46,431 nt of DNA. Source: an uncultured delta proteobacterium (GTDB lineage Bacteria > Desulfobacterota > WTBG01 > CAIYCZ01 > CAIRTM01). The stretch lies in NCBI GenBank assembly GCA_903881505.1, contig CAIRTM010000132.1:1-46431 (forward strand), in the 5' to 3' direction. Positions 4,058-25,826 of this stretch are shown in pieces; the stretch's first letter is position 1; every line of letters begins with the position of its first letter. The notes beneath the pieces are model-generated. The model saw only the letters and a list, made by a program, of their open reading frames with translations, searched no databases and had not been told where the DNA came from. The translations under genes and the position numbers were made by a program.

Positions 4058-6506
4058 AACCAGCATGAGCGATATCCCTGCCAGCCTTGCCGACATTGCG
4101 TGCGCCATGAGCAAACCGCTCAATTTTGCCGCAAAAAATAATTTCGCGAACCTGGCCGCGGTCAAAGGCCTTGACAGCGTGCTGCCCGATCTTGCCCGCC
4201 GGGCCCTGGCGCTTGACTGTCCCGAACACATCAGGGATGGCATGCGCTCACTTGCCGAGGACTTTGAAGGCTTTCACGGACAGCCCGTTGAAATACAGCA
4301 GGCTTTAATTATAAAATCAATAGAATTAGTAAATAATATCAAAAACTTAAGCAAAATATATGATGTAAAGCATAATACTCCATGCACTGCTTCGATCAGC
4401 CTGAAGCAGCTGGTCCGCCCTGTGTCCGAGCTGCCCGGCGTCGGTCCCAAAACCGCCGCGCTGCTTGAGCGCCTCAATGTCAGGACATTTGAAGACCTGC
4501 TTTTCTTTGTGCCGCGTGCCTACGTCGACCGGCGCACCGTTATGCCGATTGATCGGATCGAACCCGGCGTCCATGCAGTCGTAATCGGCTGCGTGAAGGG
4601 CGCCCCCCTCGTGAAAGCAGCCGGCCGGATGCGGATGCTTGAACTGCTTGTCAGCGACGGCAGCGCCGTCATGACAGCCAGGTGGTTCAAGCTTCCGCAG
4701 CGCTATGCCGCGCTTCTCAAAAACAGGTATGCCGACGGCGACAGGCTTATGCTGACCGGCCAGGTGAAACGGTTCGGCTGCCGCCTCGAAATGCACCATC
4801 CTGAAATCGAACAGCTCGATCCGGGCGAGGACCCGGGCGCACTGTTATCCATAACGCCGCTCTACCCCCTCACAGAGGGCCTGGCCCAGAAAACCGTGCT
4901 GCGCATCACACGGGCGCTCGTCCAGCGCATACCCGGCATGGTGCATGAGTATCTGCCCGCTCAGATTCGCACCCGGTTCAATCTCGCCGGACTGCAGGAA
5001 GCTTTCACGCACGTGCACCTGCCCGCTGCCGCGGACAATCCGCAGCAGCTCAACGCCGGAACCTCACGCTATCACCGCCGCATTGTTTTTGATGAATTTT
5101 TCATGGTGCAGCTTATGCTCGCGCTTAAAAAAAGGGGGGGCGCCCTTGAACAGGGGATCGCGCTCGCGCTGCCGGACAGCGCCCTGAAAGCGCTCGTCGA
5201 TGAACTGCCCTTTGAGCTGACCGCTGCCCAGAAGCGCACGATTGGGGAAATACGCCGTGATATGGCGTCACCCACCCCCATGAACCGCCTGCTGCAGGGT
5301 GATGTTGGCAGCGGTAAAACCGTGGTCAGCATGCTGGCGGCCTGCATCGCCATACACAACGGCTGCCAGGCGGCCATTATGGCCCCGACGGAAATCCTTG
5401 CCGCCCAGCACCATGCAACAATCAGCAGGCTGCCGGCAGGACGCAGCCTGCGCATCACCATGCTGACCGGCAATCAGCCCCGCTCCGGGCGCGCACGGCT
5501 GCTTGAGGACATTCGCAGCGGCAGAACGCAGCTCATCATCGGTACGCATGCGCTTTTACAGGATGCTGTTGAGTTTCACCGACTCGGACTTGTGATCATC
5601 GACGAGCAGCATAAATTCGGCGTTCTGCAGCGCGCCTGCTTCAGAAACAAGGGAACCAGACCCGACATGCTGGTCATGACCGCCACCCCGATTCCGCGCA
5701 CGCTGGGACTGACGGTCTATGGCGATCTGGACATATCGATTATCGATCAGCTGCCGCCCGGACGCCAGCCGGTTACCACCAGGCTCTACGGCGAATCACG
5801 CCGCGCGGATGTCTATGCTCTTGTGCGCACCGCGATTGCCTCAGGCAACCAGGCTTTTATCGTGTATCCCCTTGTAGAATCTTCAGAAAAGCTCGATCTT
5901 CTTGACGCTACCAGAATGGCGGCGCATCTGCAGCAGGATATCTTCCCGGAATACAACATCGCGCTGCTGCACGGCCGCATGGCCCCGGACGAAAAAGAAG
6001 CCGTCATGCGTGATTTCAGCGACGGACGCACCCATGTGCTGGTAGCGACCACGGTGGTCGAAGTCGGCATCGATGTGCCCAATGCAGCGATCATGGTCAT
6101 CGAACATGCCGAGCGCTTCGGGCTGTCGCAGCTGCATCAGCTGCGCGGCCGCGTCGGACGCGGCCGCGGCGAATCTCAGTGCGTGCTGCTGGCGCAGTTT
6201 TCACGCTCCGACGATGCCCGAAAACGGCTGTCGATCATGGAACAGACCAGCGACGGTTTCAGGATTGCCGAGGAGGATTTCAATATCCGGGGGCCCGGTG
6301 AACTGCTGGGAACGCGCCAGTCGGGTCTGCCCGATTTCAGGGTTGCCCACCTCGGACGTGATGTCAGGATTCTGCAACAGGCCCGCAGCGCAGCCTTTGA
6401 ACTCATTGCGGAAGACCCGATGCTCGCACGCCCAGATCATCAGGCGCTGAAAAAAATCCTTGCACAGCGCTGGATGGGACGGTTTGAGCTTGCCGGTATC
6501 GGTTAG
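4050..6506 (+). CDS. recG: ATP-dependent DNA helicase RecG, 818 aa
   Basis: RecG remodels stalled replication forks and branched DNA in the cytosol. The N-terminal part (about 130 residues) is an extension of the kind found in deltaproteobacterial RecGs. It is followed by the wedge/OB domain beginning near VSELPGVGPKTAALLERLNV. The helicase core has Walker A GDVGSGKT, DEQH in motif II, TATPIPRTL in motif III and the C-terminal QLRGRVGRG. It ends with the usual TRQSGLPDF and LAQRW elements. I chose ATG 4050, which overlaps the upstream stop, although ATG 4065 (MSDIP) is equally possible. About 80 bases near 4305-4385, in the linker before the wedge domain, are far richer in A+T than the rest of the gene. 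Confidence 0.95.
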   Translation: MPETSMSDIPASLADIACAMSKPLNFAAKNNFANLAAVKGLDSVLPDLARRALALDCPEHIRDGMRSLAEDFEGFHGQPVEIQQALIIKSIELVNNIKNLSKIYDVKHNTPCTASISLKQLVRPVSELPGVGPKTAALLERLNVRTFEDLLFFVPRAYVDRRTVMPIDRIEPGVHAVVIGCVKGAPLVKAAGRMRMLELLVSDGSAVMTARWFKLPQRYAALLKNRYADGDRLMLTGQVKRFGCRLEMHHPEIEQLDPGEDPGALLSITPLYPLTEGLAQKTVLRITRALVQRIPGMVHEYLPAQIRTRFNLAGLQEAFTHVHLPAAADNPQQLNAGTSRYHRRIVFDEFFMVQLMLALKKRGGALEQGIALALPDSALKALVDELPFELTAAQKRTIGEIRRDMASPTPMNRLLQGDVGSGKTVVSMLAACIAIHNGCQAAIMAPTEILAAQHHATISRLPAGRSLRITMLTGNQPRSGRARLLEDIRSGRTQLIIGTHALLQDAVEFHRLGLVIIDEQHKFGVLQRACFRNKGTRPDMLVMTATPIPRTLGLTVYGDLDISIIDQLPPGRQPVTTRLYGESRRADVYALVRTAIASGNQAFIVYPLVESSEKLDLLDATRMAAHLQQDIFPEYNIALLHGRMAPDEKEAVMRDFSDGRTHVLVATTVVEVGIDVPNAAIMVIEHAERFGLSQLHQLRGRVGRGRGESQCVLLAQFSRSDDARKRLSIMEQTSDGFRIAEEDFNIRGPGELLGTRQSGLPDFRVAHLGRDVRILQQARSAAFELIAEDPMLARPDHQALKKILAQRWMGRFELAGIG

Positions 6507-6533: not shown

Positions 6534-6902
6534 CTACGCCAGAAGCTGCCTGACTGCCGCACATATGGCATCACTGCGGAAGGGCTTTTGCAGGACTCGC
6601 TGTGCGCCGAAGCATTCGGCCATGTGCAGATAATTATCCGCGGGCAGGGTGCCGCCTCCGGATATGGCGATAATCCTGGCCGCGGGGTCATAGCTTCTCA
6701 GGTCCCGTATGGTTTCGAGACCTTCGCGGTCCGGCATGATCAAATCCGTGATCACCAGATCATACGGATCAGCCGTATACATGGCAAAACCGGCCCTGCC
6801 GTCAGCGGCCTCATCCACACGGTAACCGTCTGATTCAAGCATTTTTCTAAGCAGCTTGCGGATTTGCTGATCGTCGTCGATAACCAGTATGCGCGCCGTC
6901 AT
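6534..6902 (-). CDS. single-domain response regulator (CheY-like receiver), 122 aa
   Basis: This is a complete receiver domain and nothing else. It has the acidic pocket IDDD at residues 8-11, the phospho-acceptor Asp53 in LVITDLIMPD, the switch Ser in AISGGG, and Lys in VLQKPF near the end. Stand-alone receivers act by binding a partner or by passing phosphate in a relay. No histidine kinase is adjacent, so the partner is elsewhere. The gene converges on recG, with 27 bases between the two stops. Confidence 0.9.
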   Translation of the reverse strand: MTARILVIDDDQQIRKLLRKMLESDGYRVDEAADGRAGFAMYTADPYDLVITDLIMPDREGLETIRDLRSYDPAARIIAISGGGTLPADNYLHMAECFGAQRVLQKPFRSDAICAAVRQLLA

Positions 6903-14818: not shown

Positions 14819-17035
14819 ATGGGAGGTTCAAAAAAAAAACGAGCGCTCAACACACGGCAGCAGCCTGCCGCTCCGGCAACGGTCGGCGCCGGAACAGGCA
14901 TGTTCATGCGCATGCAGGCTGCATGCGACCGCTGTGCCCACAGGATCGCGCCGTGGCGTATACTGCTTGAAATCATCACGGTAACAGCCATTTTCGCGCT
15001 CGGCATTTTCTGCCGTATGGAGGACCTTTCGCAGTGGCGGAAAATCGAATCCCGTACGTTCTACGACGGCAAACCGATCCATGCCACGTTTGACGCCTGG
15101 TTTTACCTCAGCCTCGCCCAGGACCTGATCGACGGCACCTATGCGCAGCCCGATGAAAAGCGAGGCGTTCCGTACAGCCCGCGGCGTCCCGAGCCGCCTC
15201 CGCTCATCTCGATTCTGGCTGCAGCGACCGCCAAAGCGACCCACGCAAGCCTGTGCTGGGTTGGGGCGGTTATGCCGGCCATACTCGGGCCGCTGCTGGT
15301 TGTGCCCCTCTACCTGACCGGTCGTTTTTACGGCGGGATCATGTGCGGTCTGCTGGCGTCCCTCGTATCCGTTTTATATCCCTTTTATATCGTGCGCAGC
15401 AATATCGGCCGCTTTGACACCGACTGCATGATTCTACCGTTCTCGCTCAGCGCCTCATACCTGCTTATGCGCTTTGCTCTTATACGAACAGCGCGGCGCT
15501 ATGCGTATGCAGGCGCAGCCGTCGCTGTTTCGGCGCTGTTTTTGTGGTGGTGGGACCAGACGCCTGCGGCTGTGTGCGCGCTGACCGGGCTGCCCCTGCT
15601 GGCGGCACTGGCAATCTACTATCGCCCTGCGTTGCGCGAAGGACTTATCTTTTACGGTATTCTTGCCTGCGGCGCGGCAGCAGCGCTATGGTACATCGAC
15701 CCGGCTCTGCCGCTCAGGATTATCGAGCGGCTCTGGCGTGAATTTCTCTATATTACCAAAGACCAGTCAGGGAGTTTCCCGAATGTAGGTAAAACCATCA
15801 GCGAACAGTTCGTGCCTGAGTTTGCAAACATCGTCAATTCCACGACAACGAACAGCCTGTCATTCCTTTTTGCTTCTGCCGGATGCGTGCTTCTTGCCTG
15901 GCGCGAACGCGCCCGCATCCTTTTTCTGCTGCCGTTTGTCATAATGTCGTATCTGGCTTTCACAGCCGCAAACCGCTTTATCCTCTTCATGATTCCCCTT
16001 GCAGCCATCGGGACCGGATACGCAGCGTCTTGCATCTATCGGCTTTTGCACCGCGTCAGGCCGCTCGACGCCGTTGCCTGCACCGGGCTTGCAGCTGTGC
16101 TTGCGGTGCCGCTCTACACACACAATATCAGCAGCACGCGCATGCCGAAGGAGCCCGGTTTCATGGTGCAGGCCATGCACCGCATCCGCGAAATCACACC
16201 GCCGGACGCGGTTATCTGGGCATGGTGGGACCACGGCTATGCGCTGACCTATTATGCCCGACGGGCCACGATCAATGACGGTGCAATTCACGGCGGTGAA
16301 CTGACAGTATTCAACGCCATACCGTACACCACGGAAAACTTCCGCCTCGCGGCAAATTTTATGCGGTTCTATGTGGGCCGCGGCATGCCGGGCATGCAGC
16401 GCGTATACCGTCAGTTTGGTAACGATCCTGCCCGCGGGATTCAATTTGTAAAAAATGTCCTGCAGGCGGGCCCTGAAGCGGCCCGCAGGCTGCTTGAGGC
16501 CGAGCTCAAACCGGAAGGCAACTGCACAACAACTGATGACTGGCTGCGCTTCTTTTTCCCGGGCAGGGCACGCCCCCTCTATCTGGTCTGCGACCACCTT
16601 CTGAACCGCACCGCGTACTGGTGGTACTGGTTCGGCTCATGGGATGCCGCTTCCCGCTCAGGCACGCATCCACAATTCAGGCCGTACGAGCAGATCAGCT
16701 TCGACCGCGCAACCGTACGGGGAGCCGGCAACCTCGCCATCGACCGCGCATCGGGTACCTGCCTGCAGGATAACCGCCGCATTCCGCTTGCCCGCATTGA
16801 TATGCACACGAGCGGCCGCACGAATACCCTTAACGACTACAACCGCAGCGGCCTGATTTTTGAATTTAACCGCGAACACCGCAACGGAGCCCTTATGGAC
16901 GCCGGCATTGCGGATTCGGTTTTCAGCCGATTATTTATCCGCATGCTGCCCGACACGCGCTATTTCAGGCCCGTCATCAACACTCCGCCTTTTTTTCAGC
17001 TCTGGGAAGTCCTCGGCGACACCTGTGAACCGTAA
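14819..17035 (+). CDS. STT3/PglB-type oligosaccharyltransferase, 738 aa
   Basis: This is a multi-pass membrane enzyme that transfers a lipid-linked glycan to Asn of secreted proteins. About 13 membrane segments are followed by a soluble periplasmic domain from about residue 440. All main active-site elements of the family can be seen. An early Asp stands in ATFDAWFY (Asp92). The D-x-D motif is RSNIGRFDTD (200-202). The TIxE loop motif is GKTISEQF (326-329), and Arg386 falls in TAANRFILFMIP. The catalytic-domain signature is WWDHGY (469-474), where Campylobacter PglB has WWDYGY. The last 40 residues (ALMDAG...FRLFIRML-like pattern, ending QLWEVLGD) align with the PglB tail. The N-terminal 40 residues are basic and cytosolic. 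It follows the GT2 gene in one operon. Confidence 0.88.
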   Translation: MGGSKKKRALNTRQQPAAPATVGAGTGMFMRMQAACDRCAHRIAPWRILLEIITVTAIFALGIFCRMEDLSQWRKIESRTFYDGKPIHATFDAWFYLSLAQDLIDGTYAQPDEKRGVPYSPRRPEPPPLISILAAATAKATHASLCWVGAVMPAILGPLLVVPLYLTGRFYGGIMCGLLASLVSVLYPFYIVRSNIGRFDTDCMILPFSLSASYLLMRFALIRTARRYAYAGAAVAVSALFLWWWDQTPAAVCALTGLPLLAALAIYYRPALREGLIFYGILACGAAAALWYIDPALPLRIIERLWREFLYITKDQSGSFPNVGKTISEQFVPEFANIVNSTTTNSLSFLFASAGCVLLAWRERARILFLLPFVIMSYLAFTAANRFILFMIPLAAIGTGYAASCIYRLLHRVRPLDAVACTGLAAVLAVPLYTHNISSTRMPKEPGFMVQAMHRIREITPPDAVIWAWWDHGYALTYYARRATINDGAIHGGELTVFNAIPYTTENFRLAANFMRFYVGRGMPGMQRVYRQFGNDPARGIQFVKNVLQAGPEAARRLLEAELKPEGNCTTTDDWLRFFFPGRARPLYLVCDHLLNRTAYWWYWFGSWDAASRSGTHPQFRPYEQISFDRATVRGAGNLAIDRASGTCLQDNRRIPLARIDMHTSGRTNTLNDYNRSGLIFEFNREHRNGALMDAGIADSVFSRLFIRMLPDTRYFRPVINTPPFFQLWEVLGDTCEP

Positions 17036-17968: not shown

Positions 17969-18508
17969 CTATGGCCGCATAAAACGGCTCGGCAGGCGAG
18001 TGAGGCAACGGAATGCGGCAAGAACAGATGCGCGCGCCCGCGGCGCTGCAACGCAGGCCAGCCTGCGCCCGCAGGCGCTCAAGGCACGCATGAACGCAAA
18101 CAGAGCCTGCCAGTACAGGCCAGCCAGGCGTCCGGCAAGGCGATGCCTCAGATGTGTCAAATCACGGACATGCCCGTTGTGTTCAATGTGTATCACGCGA
18201 CCGATTAACGAGGATGCCGGAAACATGCCGGGGAACAACATGTTATCTCCTTTTTCACGGAACCACAGGCAGCCGTCCTGGTAAAAACTGCCGACAACAC
18301 GGTGGGCCACGAGGATGCCGGGGCGTTCAAACAGGGCTATATCCCCTGCTTTCAGCGACCGGTCTGCGGTAGCCGGCAGAAACGTCAGTGTGCTCCCATC
18401 GCATATCAACGGATACATACTCACCCCGGCTGTTTCAATTTTTCGCGGACGGCTGCCTGAACGGCACAGTTCTATGCATTGTTCTCTGAGCAGCCGGCCT
18501 GAATTCAT
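17969..18508 (-). CDS. S24/S26 signal-peptidase-like serine protease (Ser/His type), about 179 aa
   Basis: The core reads ETAGVSMYPLICDGSTL, with nucleophile Ser30 in the S-M-x-P box. KAGDIALF, LVAHRVVG (His69 where E. coli-type signal peptidases have Lys) and REKGDNML follow. This is the Ser/His arrangement of SipW and ER-type signal peptidases. There is no obvious N-terminal membrane anchor. The C-terminal 60 residues are helical and very basic. ATG 18508 is my start, but ATG 18634 would add 42 residues; neither has a good ribosome site. It is the last gene of the minus-strand run with the C25 protease, the kinase-like protein, the peptide and the PqqD-like protein. It may therefore cut the peptide or a protein made by this locus; that is inference. 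Confidence 0.65.
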   Translation of the reverse strand: MNSGRLLREQCIELCRSGSRPRKIETAGVSMYPLICDGSTLTFLPATADRSLKAGDIALFERPGILVAHRVVGSFYQDGCLWFREKGDNMLFPGMFPASSLIGRVIHIEHNGHVRDLTHLRHRLAGRLAGLYWQALFAFMRALSACGRRLACVAAPRARASVLAAFRCLTRLPSRFMRP

Positions 18509-18698: not shown

Positions 18699-21600
18699 CT
18701 ATTGAATCTGAATCACTCCTTGGCAGTCGCCAACGCTGATCCGGTATGTGCCGGGGGCGGTGCCGGCAGGCACAAGGACCTTGGCCTTTACAAATCCTTT
18801 TTTGACATTGACTTTGGGCTCAATCACCTGCACGAATGGCGATGTATCGACAGCTTTCAAGGGATCAAAACCCTGGCCGCCTGAGATACGCAGGCTGAGT
18901 TTTTTGTCCTTCTTAAGCCTGGCGGAAACCGGGGGCTTATATTTTATAGACAGAGCACACTGTGGAACACATACATAATCTGTACACGTATATGCCCCCC
19001 CGCAGTCTATGTCATTCATGCATTCGACGCACCGGTCAAGTGCCTCATTGCACACCGGTGTACCGCCGCTGCAGGGATCTCCGGTCTGCGCGCACACGCC
19101 GTTCGTGCACTGGGGATCACCGGTGCAGAACAGAGCGTCGTCAGCGCACTCATTGTCTGTCGCGCATTCAGGATCAGTGCCTTCAATTTTAAGCTCAAGC
19201 GCGGGATCACCGAACAGTATAAACGTTTCCAGAAGATCACGCGAGTTCGTCTGCTGATAGGCCTCAATTTTTGCCGCCGTAAGCAGCGCGCCGGAAGCCG
19301 TAATACGTTTATTGAAAAGGGCTTCATACATCTGCGTGCCCAGCACCTTGTGATGCGAGGGCAGCCCTGAAGCGCTCGGAGCCACACAAACTACGGCGCC
19401 CCTGTCCGGTTGACGAACAAATTCCTCAGCCGTGGCATAGTCGTCGACAACTTCGGAAAACGTACCGCTCAGGCAGTTAAGAATTAGGGCAAAGGTATAC
19501 CTGTCCGTATTGGTCAGCAGTGCAACATCATCGCGGGTTGTGCCGGTATTCTGATTCGGTGTCTGAAACCATTTTCGGTTCGACCATGTATCAGTAGAAC
19601 CATGGCCAATGTAAGTAGTTATCAAAGCACCATTGCTGATTTCATCAATCAGGTCTGCCGTAGCATCAGGGACTGTAGCGTAGGTACTCAAATACATGTT
19701 GCGTATAGTAAAATCAGAGGGCAGTTTCGTACTCAGCGATTGCGCCATGTCTTCAAAAACATTCTGATCATCGGAATCGACTGCAAAAATTGCCCGCTTA
19801 TGCCACGGCTCATACTCGACTCCCTCATAAGCACTGATTTTATCAATGATGTTGTGCAGATCATCGTTTGTTTTAACACACAAACGGCCGATTACCATGT
19901 CAGGCAATGGATCATCACCGTCAACACACACAAACCAGTTGTCAGAAGACGTGGCTCCGACACTCGGGCCGAGGCTGCCGCGATAGCCCAAATATGTCGG
20001 TATCAGATCGGCTTTGCCTTCAGATGCTCGGCCCAGATTATCGCGGTAATCGTAGGTGGCGTCTCCGACAAGCACGACATAGGTTGGGTGATCCGCTGCA
20101 TTCCAATGTTGGTAGGCATAGCTCAAAAAATCCTTAATGGCAGTTACATCCTTGATACCGTACGAAAATTCATCATATATGTCCTGGATATCAACAATCT
20201 CAACACCGAGGCCGGCCTGCTCACGTAATGTTTTAAGCTGCGCAAGCGTTGCGGCAAACTGCGCATGCGTAATAATGATGTAATCAATATCAGTGCGCGG
20301 CTGCTTTAGGTTTGAGGGTGTGTCAACAGAAAACGAAACCGGCGCACGTGATGATCCAGGGTTCACTGCGAAAAATTCAGAGCTCTGCGTAACAATGTAT
20401 TCGAAACGGGCTTGTGAAACCCCAGCGTCAGCAGTAATCTCGAGACCGCTCAGCAGCACCGGTGCTTCCGGCTGGCTGACATCAAAAACCATGATGTCGG
20501 AACCGGTAAAGCCATCCAACTCAAACGTCGTACCGCCGGCGCTGTCTGAGCCGAATGCAAGCCGGTTATTGTCGGCAGTATAGCGCTGAGCATAGGTCAA
20601 CTCAGCCCAATTGACATAATACTGATCGGGCGAAGATGGCGGATTATCAGCCGTCACGGCCTGAACGGTCAGGGTATTCATGCCGTTATTGAACAGGGCT
20701 GGTGAAAGACCGCTGATCGCTCTTCGCTCAATAGCCGTGCCTGCCCATGCAAAATCTGCAATCTGCGTACCGTTCAGCAACACCCGGGAGCGGTGGTTGA
20801 AAATGCTCACCCCCCGCAGACACAGCTCGATGTCAAAGGAACCGGCATCAGAGGCAAAATCATTGAGTGTAAAGGTCATTGCATGGGTTGTAACACCGAA
20901 AATATTGAGCAGCTGCCAGAACCATTGATCCTCTCCATCCGCATAGTCGGGAAGATTGCGCCGCCAGACCAAATCGTGCTCAATGCGCATTGATGTCGTA
21001 AACGAAGAAGGCTTTGGAAACCCGCTGACCGGCGCACTTTCAACAGTCCGCATCGCTAATCCGTCGCTGCTTCCCTGATACAGCCAATAGGCATTGGTTG
21101 CACTGTACTCACTCTGGAAATCCTCAGCATAAAAAAGAATGTAGTCACCTTCTGCAAACGGACCTGTGCCGCTGCGGTACACCGCGATTTCCCGGCCGAG
21201 GTTTTCAATTTTAATATTGCTGTTCGTCAGGCCGGCCATGTCCACGCCAAGGCTGTTAATATCATCATACGTTAAGCGGTGAACACCCGGACCTGATGTT
21301 AGAATCCGTATTGCGAAAGGACTGTCCACCATCTCGCCTGAAACCCGGAATTGCGCCGGGGCGAGCCCGTGAGCGGACGGCACACGCGCAAAACGGGAAG
21401 CTGGATTAATAACGGTTCCGGTACGAATGGTGTCAAACACCCGGGCAGCTCCGTCAACCGGTTCCTGGGCAGGCGGTTCGTTTACAACACTGCCCCCGTC
21501 TGAAGTCTGAAACTGAAGCGTCAGGGTCATGCTGCTCGCAACGCGCAGCATGCGCTGTACAGGGTTATACTGTGCGGGCGTTATCAGTATCTCCGCATAC

Positions 21601-22073
21601 TGCATGCCGCGCAGAATACCGGTAGCCGTGATTTCCGCAGGTCGTTCCGGGAGGTAGGCATCACGTTTATAGACGTTCCGATCATGTACGAACTGACTGT
21701 CTGAAAACCCTTCGCTCATAGTGCTGTCCGACGCGGGCTCAGCAACTGGCGCAAGATTCACGGAACGGTACTCCCGGACGGCGTGCACATCAATCGTGAG
21801 TGCAACCCGGGCGCCGGGGGGAATTGCAACCATCACAGTCCGGGCAACTACAGCCGGCATGCCTGACTCATGGCAGGCGCTGAAACCGTCAAGCGAGCAG
21901 GCAACCGAGCCACCATCTCCGGCGGGGATAAAAACAGGCTCAGGAACATCAACGGCAATCACCACAGAACTGGGAGTTTCAGCAATGAAACTGATCCCCT
22001 GAACAGCGATTGCCGAGCCCGGCAACGCAAGCAGGCACAGCACCATGAAAAGCAAGCAAGGACTTTTTTTCAT
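18699..22073 (-). CDS. secreted C25 (gingipain-type) cysteine protease with Cys-rich tail, 1124 aa
   Basis: A signal peptide (residues 1-23, ending GSAIA) leads into an N-terminal beta-rich propeptide-like region to about 590. The peptidase C25 domain spans about 596-965. It has DYIIITHAQF, YVVLVGDATYDYRD, the catalytic His824 in YIGHGSTDTW and Cys867 in LILNCLSGTF, then ILFGDPALEL. Residues 969-1040 hold about 15 Cys in CxxDxxC-type repeats (CATDNEC, CMNDIDC), probably disulfide-bonded and therefore extracytoplasmic. A C-terminal beta domain of about 80 residues ends the protein. Gingipains cut after Arg or Lys, but specificity cannot be read here. No type IX or LPXTG sorting signal is clear. 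It lies between the HPr-kinase-like and signal-peptidase-like genes on the same strand. Confidence 0.88.
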   Translation of the reverse strand: MKKSPCLLFMVLCLLALPGSAIAVQGISFIAETPSSVVIAVDVPEPVFIPAGDGGSVACSLDGFSACHESGMPAVVARTVMVAIPPGARVALTIDVHAVREYRSVNLAPVAEPASDSTMSEGFSDSQFVHDRNVYKRDAYLPERPAEITATGILRGMQYAEILITPAQYNPVQRMLRVASSMTLTLQFQTSDGGSVVNEPPAQEPVDGAARVFDTIRTGTVINPASRFARVPSAHGLAPAQFRVSGEMVDSPFAIRILTSGPGVHRLTYDDINSLGVDMAGLTNSNIKIENLGREIAVYRSGTGPFAEGDYILFYAEDFQSEYSATNAYWLYQGSSDGLAMRTVESAPVSGFPKPSSFTTSMRIEHDLVWRRNLPDYADGEDQWFWQLLNIFGVTTHAMTFTLNDFASDAGSFDIELCLRGVSIFNHRSRVLLNGTQIADFAWAGTAIERRAISGLSPALFNNGMNTLTVQAVTADNPPSSPDQYYVNWAELTYAQRYTADNNRLAFGSDSAGGTTFELDGFTGSDIMVFDVSQPEAPVLLSGLEITADAGVSQARFEYIVTQSSEFFAVNPGSSRAPVSFSVDTPSNLKQPRTDIDYIIITHAQFAATLAQLKTLREQAGLGVEIVDIQDIYDEFSYGIKDVTAIKDFLSYAYQHWNAADHPTYVVLVGDATYDYRDNLGRASEGKADLIPTYLGYRGSLGPSVGATSSDNWFVCVDGDDPLPDMVIGRLCVKTNDDLHNIIDKISAYEGVEYEPWHKRAIFAVDSDDQNVFEDMAQSLSTKLPSDFTIRNMYLSTYATVPDATADLIDEISNGALITTYIGHGSTDTWSNRKWFQTPNQNTGTTRDDVALLTNTDRYTFALILNCLSGTFSEVVDDYATAEEFVRQPDRGAVVCVAPSASGLPSHHKVLGTQMYEALFNKRITASGALLTAAKIEAYQQTNSRDLLETFILFGDPALELKIEGTDPECATDNECADDALFCTGDPQCTNGVCAQTGDPCSGGTPVCNEALDRCVECMNDIDCGGAYTCTDYVCVPQCALSIKYKPPVSARLKKDKKLSLRISGGQGFDPLKAVDTSPFVQVIEPKVNVKKGFVKAKVLVPAGTAPGTYRISVGDCQGVIQIQ

Positions 22074-22198: not shown

Positions 22199-23359
22199 TT
22201 ACCATCTAATAGTATCAACCATTTCTACCATCATGTCAAGGTTGCCAGGATTCAACTTGTAGCAGGGAATGTTTGCAAGCAAACGGCCAAGCAGCATTGC
22301 CAATGAAGCATTTTTGCCGCCTAAAGACGCAAGCAGACTTCCTGCCGGAGAACGATTAACAATATTTGCCATCACCGATGAAACAGCATCAAACCTAGTG
22401 ATCGGCCGCATCACCGGGTTGCGTTCAAAGGTATCTATCTCTCCCCTGTAAGGGAACACGGCAAAAATCTCATGATTGTATTGTTTCCAAATGCTGTTAA
22501 ACCGTTTTACAAAAGCTGTACGGTCAGCAGCAGCAACCCTAAATACAGGATAGCGTCCCCTCATGACCGGTCCGCTCAGTGTTACATCTGGCAGATGCCT
22601 GAGAGCATCGGGAACGCCGCTCTCCTCAGTACACAGGTAAATATCCAGAACCACCCCGCGGGGCGGACAGACACTGGCATCAACCGTACCGCAGATTTCA
22701 ATACATGCGCCAATCGGACAAGGCTGGGCCGAACGCGCCGGATCGGCGGCAGCGCAGTCAAAAAAATCCTTATCAAGGGAGCTGTGCACAAGCGCCCTTT
22801 CTGAATGAATACGACGGTACAGCGGGCTTGTCCTTCGTATGCTCACCAGGCGTTCAAACGGCTCAACCATAAAATCCGACAACCTCACCGGGCAGAATTC
22901 ATCCGACATAAAGCCATAACCCCGGCCCACAAGCTCAAGTGTAAGCGTTGTCTTGCCGAATCCCGACTGACCATAAAAAACAACGGCCCTGCCCCGCCGT
23001 ACCACAACCCCGGCATGCAGCACAATATAGTCATCGATCAGCTCAGACAGGTGGCGAAACAGGATTAGCTCGGCATGATCGAGAAAACGCTCAGTGTCAG
23101 GAAGCGGATAGAAAGACTCGCCCACAAAAAGTGCAGGGCCCTGACAGCCGGTATATGAACGCAGAACACAGCATTCAATATCTAATACATCAGGCGGAGG
23201 TACAACGAAATGCTTATAAACAAGCGCCAACGTATTAACTGTATCACGATCATCGGAATGCAGCCTAACATGCCGTCCCCAGAATCGAAGCACACAGCTA
23301 TAGGGGCACTCATTAATCACCCGGTGCAAATGCAAATCTGGCACAATCAAAGATGGCAT
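22199..23359 (-). CDS. HPr-kinase/SerK-like P-loop protein, 386 aa
   Basis: The central region has the pattern of HprK-related kinases found in peptide-modification loci. DYIVLHAGVVV is followed by the P-loop YGQSGFGKTTLTLEL (about residues 129-143), and then YGFMSDEFCPV carries the acidic pair that in HprK lies after the P-loop. It lacks the N-terminal domain and long catalytic loop of true HPr kinase. Relatives are often annotated 'HprK-related kinase' beside PqqD-family proteins. One known relative phosphorylates a Ser of a lasso peptide precursor. I start at ATG 23359 because the longer frame from 23413 would run through an intrinsic terminator; no strong ribosome site is seen. Expression probably depends on read-through. 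Confidence 0.7.
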   Translation of the reverse strand: MPSLIVPDLHLHRVINECPYSCVLRFWGRHVRLHSDDRDTVNTLALVYKHFVVPPPDVLDIECCVLRSYTGCQGPALFVGESFYPLPDTERFLDHAELILFRHLSELIDDYIVLHAGVVVRRGRAVVFYGQSGFGKTTLTLELVGRGYGFMSDEFCPVRLSDFMVEPFERLVSIRRTSPLYRRIHSERALVHSSLDKDFFDCAAADPARSAQPCPIGACIEICGTVDASVCPPRGVVLDIYLCTEESGVPDALRHLPDVTLSGPVMRGRYPVFRVAAADRTAFVKRFNSIWKQYNHEIFAVFPYRGEIDTFERNPVMRPITRFDAVSSVMANIVNRSPAGSLLASLGGKNASLAMLLGRLLANIPCYKLNPGNLDMMVEMVDTIRW

Positions 23360-23367
23360 AGTCTTAC

Positions 23368-23402
23368 AAAAAAAAAGGGTTATACATGCAGCTGTATAAC
23401 CC
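23368..23402 (-). terminator. intrinsic terminator between the small peptide gene and the kinase-like gene
   Basis: On the minus strand GGGTTATACA pairs perfectly with TGTATAACCC (10 bp, 6-base loop) and is followed by nine T. It starts 27 bases after the peptide stop codon and 9 bases separate the T run from the start of the kinase-like gene. This would make the peptide transcript short and abundant, with downstream genes reached by read-through. Confidence 0.9.
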
Positions 23403-23429: not shown

Positions 23430-23537
23430 TTAACCCAGCTCGTCTTCCATGAAACTATTGTACGTCTGAGCAGGGCCGATTATCGCCGCTATCTCTTCTT
23501 CAGTATAGGTTGTAATTTTCGGTTTTTCGTACTTCAT
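23430..23537 (-). CDS. 35-aa precursor-like peptide of a candidate RiPP system
   Basis: ATG 23537 follows AGAGGTG at six bases, a strong ribosome site. The peptide begins MKYEKPKITTYTEEEIAAII, continues GPAQTYNSFMEDELG and stops at TAA 23430. The N-terminal Y3-x-x-P6-x-I8 resembles the leader motif that PqqD-like recognition domains bind in lasso-type precursors. The glutamate-rich middle could form a helix. After Gly21 the last 15 residues hold Thr25, Tyr26 and Ser28, possible targets for the adjacent kinase-like protein. It has two candidate promoters and its own terminator, and lies between the PqqD-like and HprK-like genes. I infer a leader plus core peptide; the leader/core border at or near Gly21 is a guess. 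Confidence 0.75.
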   Translation of the reverse strand: MKYEKPKITTYTEEEIAAIIGPAQTYNSFMEDELG

Positions 23538-23591
23538 GTTAAACACCTCTGTGCTGGATTGTCATAGGCTATTATTTCAGCCTTCATCTAG

Positions 23592-23711: not shown

Positions 23712-23984
23712 TTAAATCAAAAGTCCTTTCCGTTTAAACTCCGTCAAGGCAAGAGAAATATCGTCAGTGAGCCCAGACTCTGAATCCGGGTACTGAAGTG
23801 CCATTTCTCGCCTGATATCCTCCAAAGTATTCCTGCCATTGCACAATTTCCATATGGCATGTGCACTGTGGTTCAACACATGTATTTTTTCGCCATCGCT
23901 GTCATAGAGCATAACCTCATCGCCGATTGCCTGTGCGCTGATATCGCCCCGGGCTTCAGGCCGCGCATATGTGTCATTGGACAT
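23712..23984 (-). CDS. PqqD-family peptide-binding protein (RRE), 90 aa
   Basis: The protein has the PqqD/RRE winged-helix pattern. An N-terminal strand region ARPEARGDISAQAIGDEVML is followed by DSDGEKIHVLNHSAHAIWKL and helices with TLEDIRREMALQYP and LTEFKRKGLLI. PqqD-type domains bind the leader of a ribosomally made peptide and present it to modifying enzymes. The length is right for a stand-alone member. ATG 23984 follows GGAGCACAG. It is the first gene of the minus-strand run and is followed by the 35-residue peptide. No PQQ synthesis gene is nearby, so a PQQ role is unlikely. Confidence 0.85.
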   Translation of the reverse strand: MSNDTYARPEARGDISAQAIGDEVMLYDSDGEKIHVLNHSAHAIWKLCNGRNTLEDIRREMALQYPDSESGLTDDISLALTEFKRKGLLI

Positions 23985-24154: not shown

Positions 24155-24228
24155 GGCGGTGTAGCTCAGGTGGTTAGAGCATGCGGCTCATATCCGCAGT
24201 GTCCGGGGTTCAAGTCCCTGCACCGCCA
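24155..24228 (+). tRNA. tRNA-Met (anticodon CAT), elongator type
   Basis: GGCGGTG (24155-24161) pairs with CACCGCC (24221-24227), with discriminator A. The D-arm is GCTC...GAGC, the anticodon stem TGCGG/CCGCA has loop CTCATAT (anticodon CAT), and the T-arm is CGGGG-TTCAAGT-CCCTG. The first acceptor pair is G-C, which rules out an initiator. CAT is also used by tRNA-Ile2, but the acceptor and D-arm sequence resemble elongator tRNA-Met. The 3' CCA is not encoded. Confidence 0.95.
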
Positions 24229-24309
24229 CTTTATCCCCCTTTTCTTCAAACACATCCCTGCACGCACCAATCCGTGTTTATTCTACCATATCATGGAAAG
24301 CCCCCATGG

Positions 24310-24368: not shown

Positions 24369-25826
24369 CTAACCGTGCCGTACAGTTTTGAGTTTGTGCT
24401 TAACATATCCCGTCATACTGTATTTTAGCACATCCCAGCCTGCGCGCAGGATGTTGAGCATGATACAGGGCTTTCGAATCACTTTTAAAACATAGCGCGC
24501 AATCACTGCGGGCCGCAGGTAGAATTTCCTGAACATGCGGCGATGGCCGGCGATAAGCTCTTCCCGGGTCATCCCGTGCGGAATGAAAACAGGGTCCCAG
24601 AAACCGAGCTTGCGCCAGTCGCAGTCGAATGCGCCCCATTTCCGCCAGCTATCAAACAGCTCAGCACCGGGCATGGGCGTGCAAAACGTCACATGAAATT
24701 CCTTCAGCTTGCTGTCGCGCATGAAATCAATCGTTTTTTCGATGGTTGCAGGTGTCTCGCCGGGGCAGCCGATCATAAAATAGCCGCGTGTCGTAATGCC
24801 GGCATTGTTGGCCTGCTGTATCATTTGAACAACGCGGTCGATCTTAACATGCTTTTTCATGTTGTTTAGAATTTCCTGATCGCCGCTCTCGATGCCATAG
24901 GCAATCTGCCAGCACCCGGCCCGGTGTATGGTTTCGTAAAAATCCTTAGGCGTCAGGTCGGTCCGCGCAAGGCAGGACCAGGAAATGCGGTAATCGCGGC
25001 TGAGCAGCGCATCGCATATCTTCAGCACACGCCCCCGGTCCAGCAGAAAATTATCATCATAAAACATAATGTCCCGAATACCGTACTGGCGCACAAGATG
25101 ATCGACCATGGCCAGGGTGTATTCAGGGCTGTTGCTGCGATAGCGCTCGCCCATAAAGGGGCGCGCGCAGAACGTGCATGTTCCATTGCAGCCGCGAGAT
25201 GTCATCAAAGATGAAGACGGCAGCTGAAAATAGCTGTGCGGAGCGGGTTTATAATGCTTCGCAAGATCAGGTATCAGATCCCAGGCGGGAAACGGCAGCT
25301 CATCAAGATTCTCAATTAACGCCCGCGCGGGCGTCATAGTGATGTCATCCCGGTCGCGAAAAACCACGCCGCGGATATCATGATAGGAACTGCCGCTTTT
25401 ATTAGCCTCGATCACCTCAACGATGGTGTGTTCACCCTCGTTAATGACCCCGAGATCGAATTCAGGAAACTCACGCAGGGTCTGTTCCGGCAGAGCGGAA
25501 ACATGGGCGCCGCCGATAACAATAGGCGAACGCACACCGCCTGCCCGTAACCCCTGCGCAAGTTCAGCAGCACGGATAATCGATGCGGTTGTCGCGGTGA
25601 TACCGATCAGCGCTGCCCTTGTGCCCCCGACTTCGCGCACGGTCGCAGGCAGATCAAGGTTCAAGGCCGGAGCATCCAGTATGCCGGCACGGTGGCCGGC
25701 CTTCCTGACCGCAGCGGCAAGATAGCAGAGCCCCAGCGGCGGCGCCTGGCTGCCCACGGATGCAAATGCACCGTAGCGTTCTGCAAGTGTCAGGGGGGGA
25801 TTAACCAACAGGATATCAAGGCTCAT
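24369..25826 (-). CDS. B12-binding-domain radical SAM protein, about 485 aa
   Basis: I start at ATG 25826 (MSLDILLVNPPLTLAERYG), where the family sequence begins; upstream starts at 25859 and 25877 are also open. The N-terminal domain is cobalamin-binding-like: PPLGLCYLAAAVRKAGH, then IVIGGAHVSALPEQTL and FDLGVINEGEHTIVEVI. The radical SAM domain has the cluster motif in SRGCNGTCTFCARP (CxxxCxxC). It continues with FYDDNFLLDRGRV and YGIESGDQEILNNMKK and GYFMIGCPGETPATIEKTI. Members methylate or rearrange lipids, antibiotics and cofactors (HpnP, BchE and others); the substrate here is unknown. It is separated from the peptide locus by the tRNA. Confidence 0.88.
   Translation of the reverse strand: MSLDILLVNPPLTLAERYGAFASVGSQAPPLGLCYLAAAVRKAGHRAGILDAPALNLDLPATVREVGGTRAALIGITATTASIIRAAELAQGLRAGGVRSPIVIGGAHVSALPEQTLREFPEFDLGVINEGEHTIVEVIEANKSGSSYHDIRGVVFRDRDDITMTPARALIENLDELPFPAWDLIPDLAKHYKPAPHSYFQLPSSSLMTSRGCNGTCTFCARPFMGERYRSNSPEYTLAMVDHLVRQYGIRDIMFYDDNFLLDRGRVLKICDALLSRDYRISWSCLARTDLTPKDFYETIHRAGCWQIAYGIESGDQEILNNMKKHVKIDRVVQMIQQANNAGITTRGYFMIGCPGETPATIEKTIDFMRDSKLKEFHVTFCTPMPGAELFDSWRKWGAFDCDWRKLGFWDPVFIPHGMTREELIAGHRRMFRKFYLRPAVIARYVLKVIRKPCIMLNILRAGWDVLKYSMTGYVKHKLKTVRHG

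Follow-up and report, generated by a model that had tools for sequence, protein, structure and literature searches.

A conserved short peptide gene in a PqqD/HprK/C25 operon of Thermodesulfobacteriota, and its pairing with genes for FnIII-tailed secreted proteins

The window analysed here, a stretch of 46,431 nucleotides forming one contig of an uncultured delta proteobacterium, carries a short ORF between genes for PqqD-like and HprK-like proteins, and the question that it raises is whether so short a frame encodes a peptide and what such a peptide would be for. A sequence-only reading of the window had proposed an overlooked gene for a 35-residue peptide with a strong ribosome site, a leader motif Y3-x-x-P6-x-I8 and, beyond a Glu-rich stretch, a GPAQT-type C-terminal segment. 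The ORF was found at that place on the minus strand, with AGAGGTG 6 bases 5' of its ATG, and its product, MKYEKPKITTYTEEEIAAIIGPAQTYNSFMEDELG, contains the YxxPxI residues, an EEE stretch and a GPAQTYNS segment (Table 1). Since a GTG upstream, at 23546, overlaps the AGAGGTG site, the ATG at 23537 is the likely start (stop codon 23430–23432); a promoter-like site upstream of the gene (23662–23634) is a consensus match only. Homologous short ORFs occur in relatives of the same family, order and class (98 relatives searched) and in 11 of 395 genomes of the phylum, with E values down to 1e-22, and an iterated profile gathered 29 members of the family from the fetched loci. Among 24 aligned sequences the consensus reads YxxPx[VI]ITYsEdEIxxxIGPAQ, with Gly21-Pro22-Ala23 invariant and Tyr3, Glu4, Pro6, Thr10 and Tyr11 at least 90% conserved, which recovers the predicted logo of conserved YxxP and GPAQT. 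Substitutions are biased to synonymous (pN/pS 0.07 among the copies of genome G010, 0.23 among those of G005, 0.32 between genomes, and 0.25–0.33 for the window versus relatives), and in relatives the small ORFs adjoin homologous PqqD-like and HprK-like genes, so that neither observation that would have refuted the proposal, a lack of such neighbours or of coding constraint, was made. The peptide gene is real, under purifying selection and far beyond chance. The window peptide has no matching model in Pfam or NCBIfam, and scanning 84,980 species genomes for the pattern turned up members only in Deltaproteobacteria/Thermodesulfobacteriota-type MAGs, apart from one isolate whose title says Proteobacteria only.

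Table 1. Features of the peptide operon, with positions in the window
Feature	Position	Strand	Size	Basis
Precursor peptide gene	23430..23537	(-)	35 aa	Homologues, conserved columns, purifying selection, Shine-Dalgarno
Peptide parts: leader MKYEKPKITTYTEEEIAAII, predicted core GPAQTYNSFMEDELG				
Discrete PqqD-like RRE (leader-binding) protein	23712..23984	(-)	90 aa	Pfam PqqD 2.5e-12, above cut-off
HprK-like peptide kinase	22199..23359	(-)	386 aa	TIGR04352 2.4e-18, below cut-off; PDB HprK matches
Exported C25 peptidase, PorU/gingipain-like	18699..22073	(-)	1124 aa	Pfam C25 6e-89, Propeptide_C25
SpI-like (archaeal-type signal peptidase I) protease	17969..18508	(-)	179 aa	TIGR02228 8.7e-10, below cut-off
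Terminator/attenuator-like hairpin GGGTTATACAGCTGCATGTATAACCC, then T9	23377..23402	(-)		Between peptide and kinase genes

The five genes of the window operon lie on one strand in the order PqqD-type RRE, peptide, HprK-like kinase, C25 peptidase and SpI-like peptidase, and where the contig covers it this order recurs in G004 (L027), G006 (L022), G010 (L032), G013 (L040), G091 (L038) and G337 (L117). The PqqD-like gene adjoins the peptide gene in six relatives, and the SpI-like gene is kept as the final gene. The kinase has His115, a P-loop at 130–138 (GQSGFGKTT) and SDE at 152–154; its relatives are only ~25–32% identical to it, His, GKTT and SD are invariant across seven of them in an alignment, and a search for related loci with the window kinase as query found none. 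The C25 protein has catalytic His824 and Cys867, both invariant in the C25 alignment, and its best solved relative is PorU (6za2, 1.6e-27), with 4ief and 5mun also matching; an AlphaFold model from five sequences was poor (pLDDT 40.6), and the relationships of this protein rest on sequence. In the SpI-like protein the triad is Ser30-His69-Asp88 (Ser is replaced by Cys in G013), and we consider it the probable leader peptidase, an activity that is inferred. No peptide exporter, transporter or immunity gene was recognized in the operon, and no NTP transferase or MsbA-like transporter among the mapped operon ORFs, one locus (L040) having an unidentified ORF that starts after the SpI gene. Two genomes with the peptide, G005 and G009, have neither kinase nor C25 in their assemblies, which are fragmented, so that gene loss cannot be told from an assembly gap. 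Membership of the HprK-related kinase A, SynChlorMet or GeoRSP cassettes was rejected, PqqD, HprK and radical SAM scores being well below the curated NCBIfam cut-offs. Around the operon, an STT3/PglB-like oligosaccharyltransferase gene lies nearby on the opposite strand of the window (14819–17035), the operons of relatives having other neighbours, and a tRNA-Met (cat) gene (24155–24229) separates the operon from a B12-binding radical SAM gene (24369–25826). By eye only, genes resembling those for EF-P and its modification (GenX/EpmA-like) and the two genes of an ABC importer were recognized immediately upstream of the PqqD gene at L022 and L028.

Between the peptide and kinase genes is a hairpin with arms GGGTTATACA...TGTATAACCC followed by a T-run. 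The stem GGGTTATAC is found in this position in five genomes (G000, the window genome, and G003, G004, G006 and G010), although the flanking proteins are only ~30% identical, and G000, G003 and G004 each have a single match to the perfect-stem pattern, always at the peptide–kinase junction. This suggests an attenuator yielding more peptide than enzyme, and perhaps the hairpin has a sequence-specific role.

The relatives differ from the window in one enzyme. An RRE-radical SAM-SPASM protein of 459–494 aa, with N-terminal PqqD, radical SAM and SPASM domains, is encoded between peptide and kinase in G003, G004, G010, G013, G091 and G337; it is missing from the operon in the window genome, G001 and G006, and no close radical SAM protein was found in the window genome. 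Operon peptides lack Cys in exactly these three (GPAQTY, GPAHTV and GPAQTM), and read GPA[QH][TA]C in the six operons with the enzyme (Fisher p 0.012 for the association). The best NCBIfam match of the maturase is the StsB family, far below curated cut-offs, and a mycofactocin maturase is among the best matches. The architecture is that of StsB-type sactipeptide and PapB ranthipeptide maturases, from which the window genome differs in having no maturase and a Cys-less operon core; the domains and Cys core expected of those classes are thus present in relatives only, and the product is inferred. A second peptide copy in the window genome, at 6781–6894 of another contig (G000:C95, L036/L118), reads MEEKKPEKPEVITFSEHEVLEIIGPAQACGGFSGSVM and retains Cys, yet no close maturase was found; the letters that follow this copy, and with them its neighbour, are masked as N. 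At L040 in G013 a second, short radical SAM protein (4998–5903, Pfam 5e-10) is encoded between the SPASM maturase and the kinase.

Among known systems the closest match is the family of linear polyphosphorylated peptides (LPPs) of Bacillota, made by the lpp cluster and described in 2026 (PMC13381572), and not the lasso peptides. The LPP pathway comprises a discrete RRE, a YxxPxV leader, an HprK kinase and an SpI-like leader peptidase, with no cyclase (PMC13381572). The window operon likewise has a discrete RRE beside a precursor with a YxxPx[V/I/L] leader, an HprK-like kinase meeting the pattern of His, GxxGxGK[S/T] and Asp motif, an SpI triad (S30/H69/D88) comparable to that of LppS (S29/H68/D93; PMC13381572) and no cyclase. 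The differences are also clear. The LPP motif is YxxPxVLxHQxIxFETxxS, whereas the window family has neither HQ nor FET; phosphate is carried on LPP core Ser3, whereas position 3 of the window core is Ala if that core begins at Gly21; the NTP transferase and MsbA-type transporter of LPP clusters were not recognized in the operons mapped here; and the present system, in the phylum Thermodesulfobacteriota rather than Bacillota, adds a core of the form GPAQ[TA][C/Y/M/V], an optional radical SAM maturase, a C25 peptidase and FnIII-tailed cargo. Every core of the family has Ser or Thr somewhere in positions 5 to 10, and no single column is hydroxylated in all members. The interpretation of the sequence-only reading, which had taken hydroxyl residues near the C-terminus as possible phosphorylation sites, is supported overall, with phosphorylation itself no more than inferred; it did not take in the C25 and SpI-like peptidases, the maturase of relatives or the FnIII-tailed secreted partners.

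What sets the system apart is where the remaining peptide copies lie. Outside the operon there are eight extra copies in each of G005 and G010, three in G013 and one in G009, and 18 of the 20 non-operon copies that could be evaluated are co-oriented with, and within 100 bp of, a gene whose secreted product carries a shared C-terminal domain; of the two exceptions, one copy in G013 is 1.4 kb off on the same strand and the other has no FnIII-tailed neighbour. By position alone the chance of such placement is ~5e-4 for one copy, but the copies within a genome are related and not independent, so that the product of the per-copy chances is no probability. The cargo domain has 15 invariant columns (alignment A1) and ends in HGPVSATPRxIxG, at or a few residues from the C-terminus. 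It gave no significant Pfam or NCBIfam match for the proteins tried, and its predicted fold is FnIII (AlphaFold pLDDT 92.7, with many FnIII matches). Such tails number 48 in G003, 34 in G013, 31 in G005 and 27 in G010, and many of the genes have no adjacent peptide (in G005, 31 against nine peptides). Three genomes of the same family without the peptide (G002, G007 and G008) gave one to three weak matches, and f3 and f4 genomes gave none. The window genus has a pared-down system: the operon genes are still open, but there is no radical SAM enzyme, the operon peptide lacks Cys, and the one FnIII-tailed protein of the window genome is a weak match and ends differently (HGPCGPVSAWEDCSYEP); in G001 two weak tail matches both fall in one such protein.

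Several observations on secreted proteins stand beside this pattern. A secreted FnIII-domain protein with the altered end HGPCGPVSAWEDCSY[EA]P is encoded at L059 (G000:C53) and L060 (G001:C46). In G091, which belongs to a distant family among the relatives, FnIII domains at L056, L069 and L083 are followed by a tail of 41–42 aa that ends in a transmembrane stretch plus Arg and is CTERM-like. The same-genus operon at L021 (G001) has a 392-aa secreted ORF (939–2117) between peptide (752–880) and kinase; a GVEFD end common to the G001 peptide and its neighbour was considered as a tag and rejected, being due to a 21-bp DNA repeat, GGCGTTGAATTCGACTGATGC.

Across the phylum the parts keep company. 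The kinase subfamily is found in nine of 395 genomes and FnIII tails at E<1e-40 in seven, in every case together with the peptide (Fisher p 9e-17 and 1e-12, respectively). C25 is present in nine of the 11 peptide genomes and, among five non-peptide relatives searched, in G015 only, where it is weaker. Co-occurrence is confounded by phylogeny, nine of the 11 peptide genomes belonging to one class.

Our current working hypothesis is that the peptide is an LPP-like phospho-RiPP precursor that serves the C25 protein, acting as a 'sortase', and a set of secreted cargo proteins. That it is a RiPP precursor is well supported; for the hypothesis as a whole we find the balance even. From the families of the enzymes it would follow that the PqqD protein binds and presents the YExPxI leader, a step that is itself well supported, that the kinase phosphorylates Ser/Thr of the short core and that, in relatives, the core is altered further by the RRE-radical SAM/SPASM enzyme, probably at Cys (GPAQTC). 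The SpI-like Ser-His-Asp peptidase would then cut off the leader at Gly21 or immediately ahead of it, leaving a core that begins Gly-Pro-Ala, this start being inferred. Finally the exported C25 protein may act with the core on secreted proteins whose FnIII domain ends in the HGPVSATPR tail, and peptide genes beside cargo genes would provide, along with the cargo, the peptide that is spent on it. The gene pairing is understandable if each cargo molecule consumes one peptide. Attachment of peptide to cargo nevertheless remains tentative, as no chemistry has been demonstrated, and a little more doubtful again is the full sorting scheme, in which the C25 sortase swaps the ends of FnIII-tailed proteins for a phosphorylated (in relatives, Cys-modified) GPAQ peptide encoded by a gene paired with that of the cargo.

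The model for such an exchange is PorU, which cleaves a C-terminal beta-sandwich domain off its cargo and which, without A-LPS, joins peptides from the medium that start (G/S)(V/L/I) to cargo C-termini, mirroring the cleavage site (PMC4560394). The window protein is likewise an exported C25 peptidase with catalytic His and Cys and has PorU as its best solved match, and the cargo here likewise share a C-terminal beta-sandwich domain. By analogy, PorU-type transpeptidation appears the most likely chemistry, with the Gly-Pro N-terminus of the core mimicking a leaving Gly-Pro segment; alternatively, C25 might cut the FnIII tail after the conserved Arg before the core is joined. Gly-Pro is common at the ends of ordinary FnIII domains, so that the resemblance of GPAQT to GPVSATPR is weak evidence and may be coincidence. 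The differences from PorU are that its natural acceptor is A-LPS and not a RiPP, that the window C25 scores 261.6 bits against a cut-off of 420 for NF033707, and that here the cargo domain is FnIII at the very C-terminus and C25 has an N-terminal gingipain propeptide domain. Membership of the T9SS as such was rejected, the PorU model being below its cut-off; a search for the translocon protein SprA gave no match in 11 genomes, yet control genomes gave none either, and it is uninformative.

The strongest competitor is that the peptide is a free-standing LPP-like phospho-RiPP, whether a signal, a matrix component or an antimicrobial, with C25 trimming peptide or cargo outside the cell and the genes sharing regulation without covalent union. 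The RRE, YxxPxI leader, HprK and SpI alone make a complete LPP-like pathway (PMC13381572), and the hairpin would let precursor outnumber the enzymes, as happens with free RiPPs. The extra copies, however, lie almost exclusively beside FnIII-tailed genes, the operon has no recognized transporter or immunity gene, and so constant a short core within one genome (pN/pS 0.07 in G010) is unusual for an antimicrobial. We judge this reading unlikely but still to be reckoned with. One-to-one pairing with cargo would also be expected of a non-covalent escort or inhibitor, either a propeptide-like regulator of C25 or a co-translocated chaperone for the FnIII-tailed proteins, and pro-domains do control C25 enzymes (the 4ief and 5mun matches); that is improbable for a peptide without a signal sequence but with a classic RRE leader and RRE, kinase, radical SAM and leader peptidase partners, the more so as the C25 protein already has its own propeptide domain. 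PqqD together with radical SAM/SPASM is the combination that marks PQQ and mycofactocin systems, and the mycofactocin maturase match could point to the precursor of a redox cofactor or electron carrier; but the radical SAM enzyme is missing in the window and two relatives, no dehydrogenase partner occurs in the mapped loci, and the actual partners are a kinase, C25 and exported FnIII-tailed proteins, which leaves this reading with very little room.

A lasso precursor, with whose leader motif the sequence-only reading had compared the peptide, is harder still to maintain. The leader, RRE and kinase assignments stand, since they fit both the Bsf and the LPP systems (PMC10368454, PMC13381572): Bsf-type lasso peptides have a YxxPxL leader, a core starting at Gly1 and an HprK kinase (PMC10368454), and in the phosphorylated examples (BsfA/BsfK of Bradymonas, paeninodin) the leader motif is at nearly the same distance from Gly1 and the kinase has the same His, P-loop and Asp, with Asp-Asp in BsfK where the window has Asp-Glu. 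A lasso assignment does not stand, because cyclase and B2 are absent from the operon, PF13471 matches are partial and in ~500-aa proteins on other contigs, and core positions 7–9 have no ring-forming Asp or Glu (GPAQTYNSF, GPAQTCTTG, GPAQTCSPS). A chance ORF, for which only its extreme shortness and the absence of Pfam and NCBIfam matches speak, is contradicted by the homologue family, the synteny and the synonymous bias, and we discount it almost entirely.

In the working hypothesis of a peptide that serves C25 and FnIII-tailed cargo, the novelty appears to be the wiring, that is, the coupling of a phospho-RiPP pathway to a C25 protein and secreted proteins. The literature that we searched, which left most subscription papers and preprints outside its scope, held no account of a C25/PqqD/HprK combination. 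Most RiPPs described so far are secreted small molecules or cofactors, and the sortase acceptors known to us are the cell wall, lipid, pilin or sugar. The case shows that the key part of a system of several genes can escape gene callers. The role of LPPs is unknown according to their discoverers (PMC13381572), and the hypothesis, if true, would give LPP-like phosphopeptides a first testable function. If the peptide does tag exported proteins, it would link two fields, the sorting of surface proteins and the study of peptide natural products, and the C25 protein could be a natural enzyme that joins peptides to protein C-termini.
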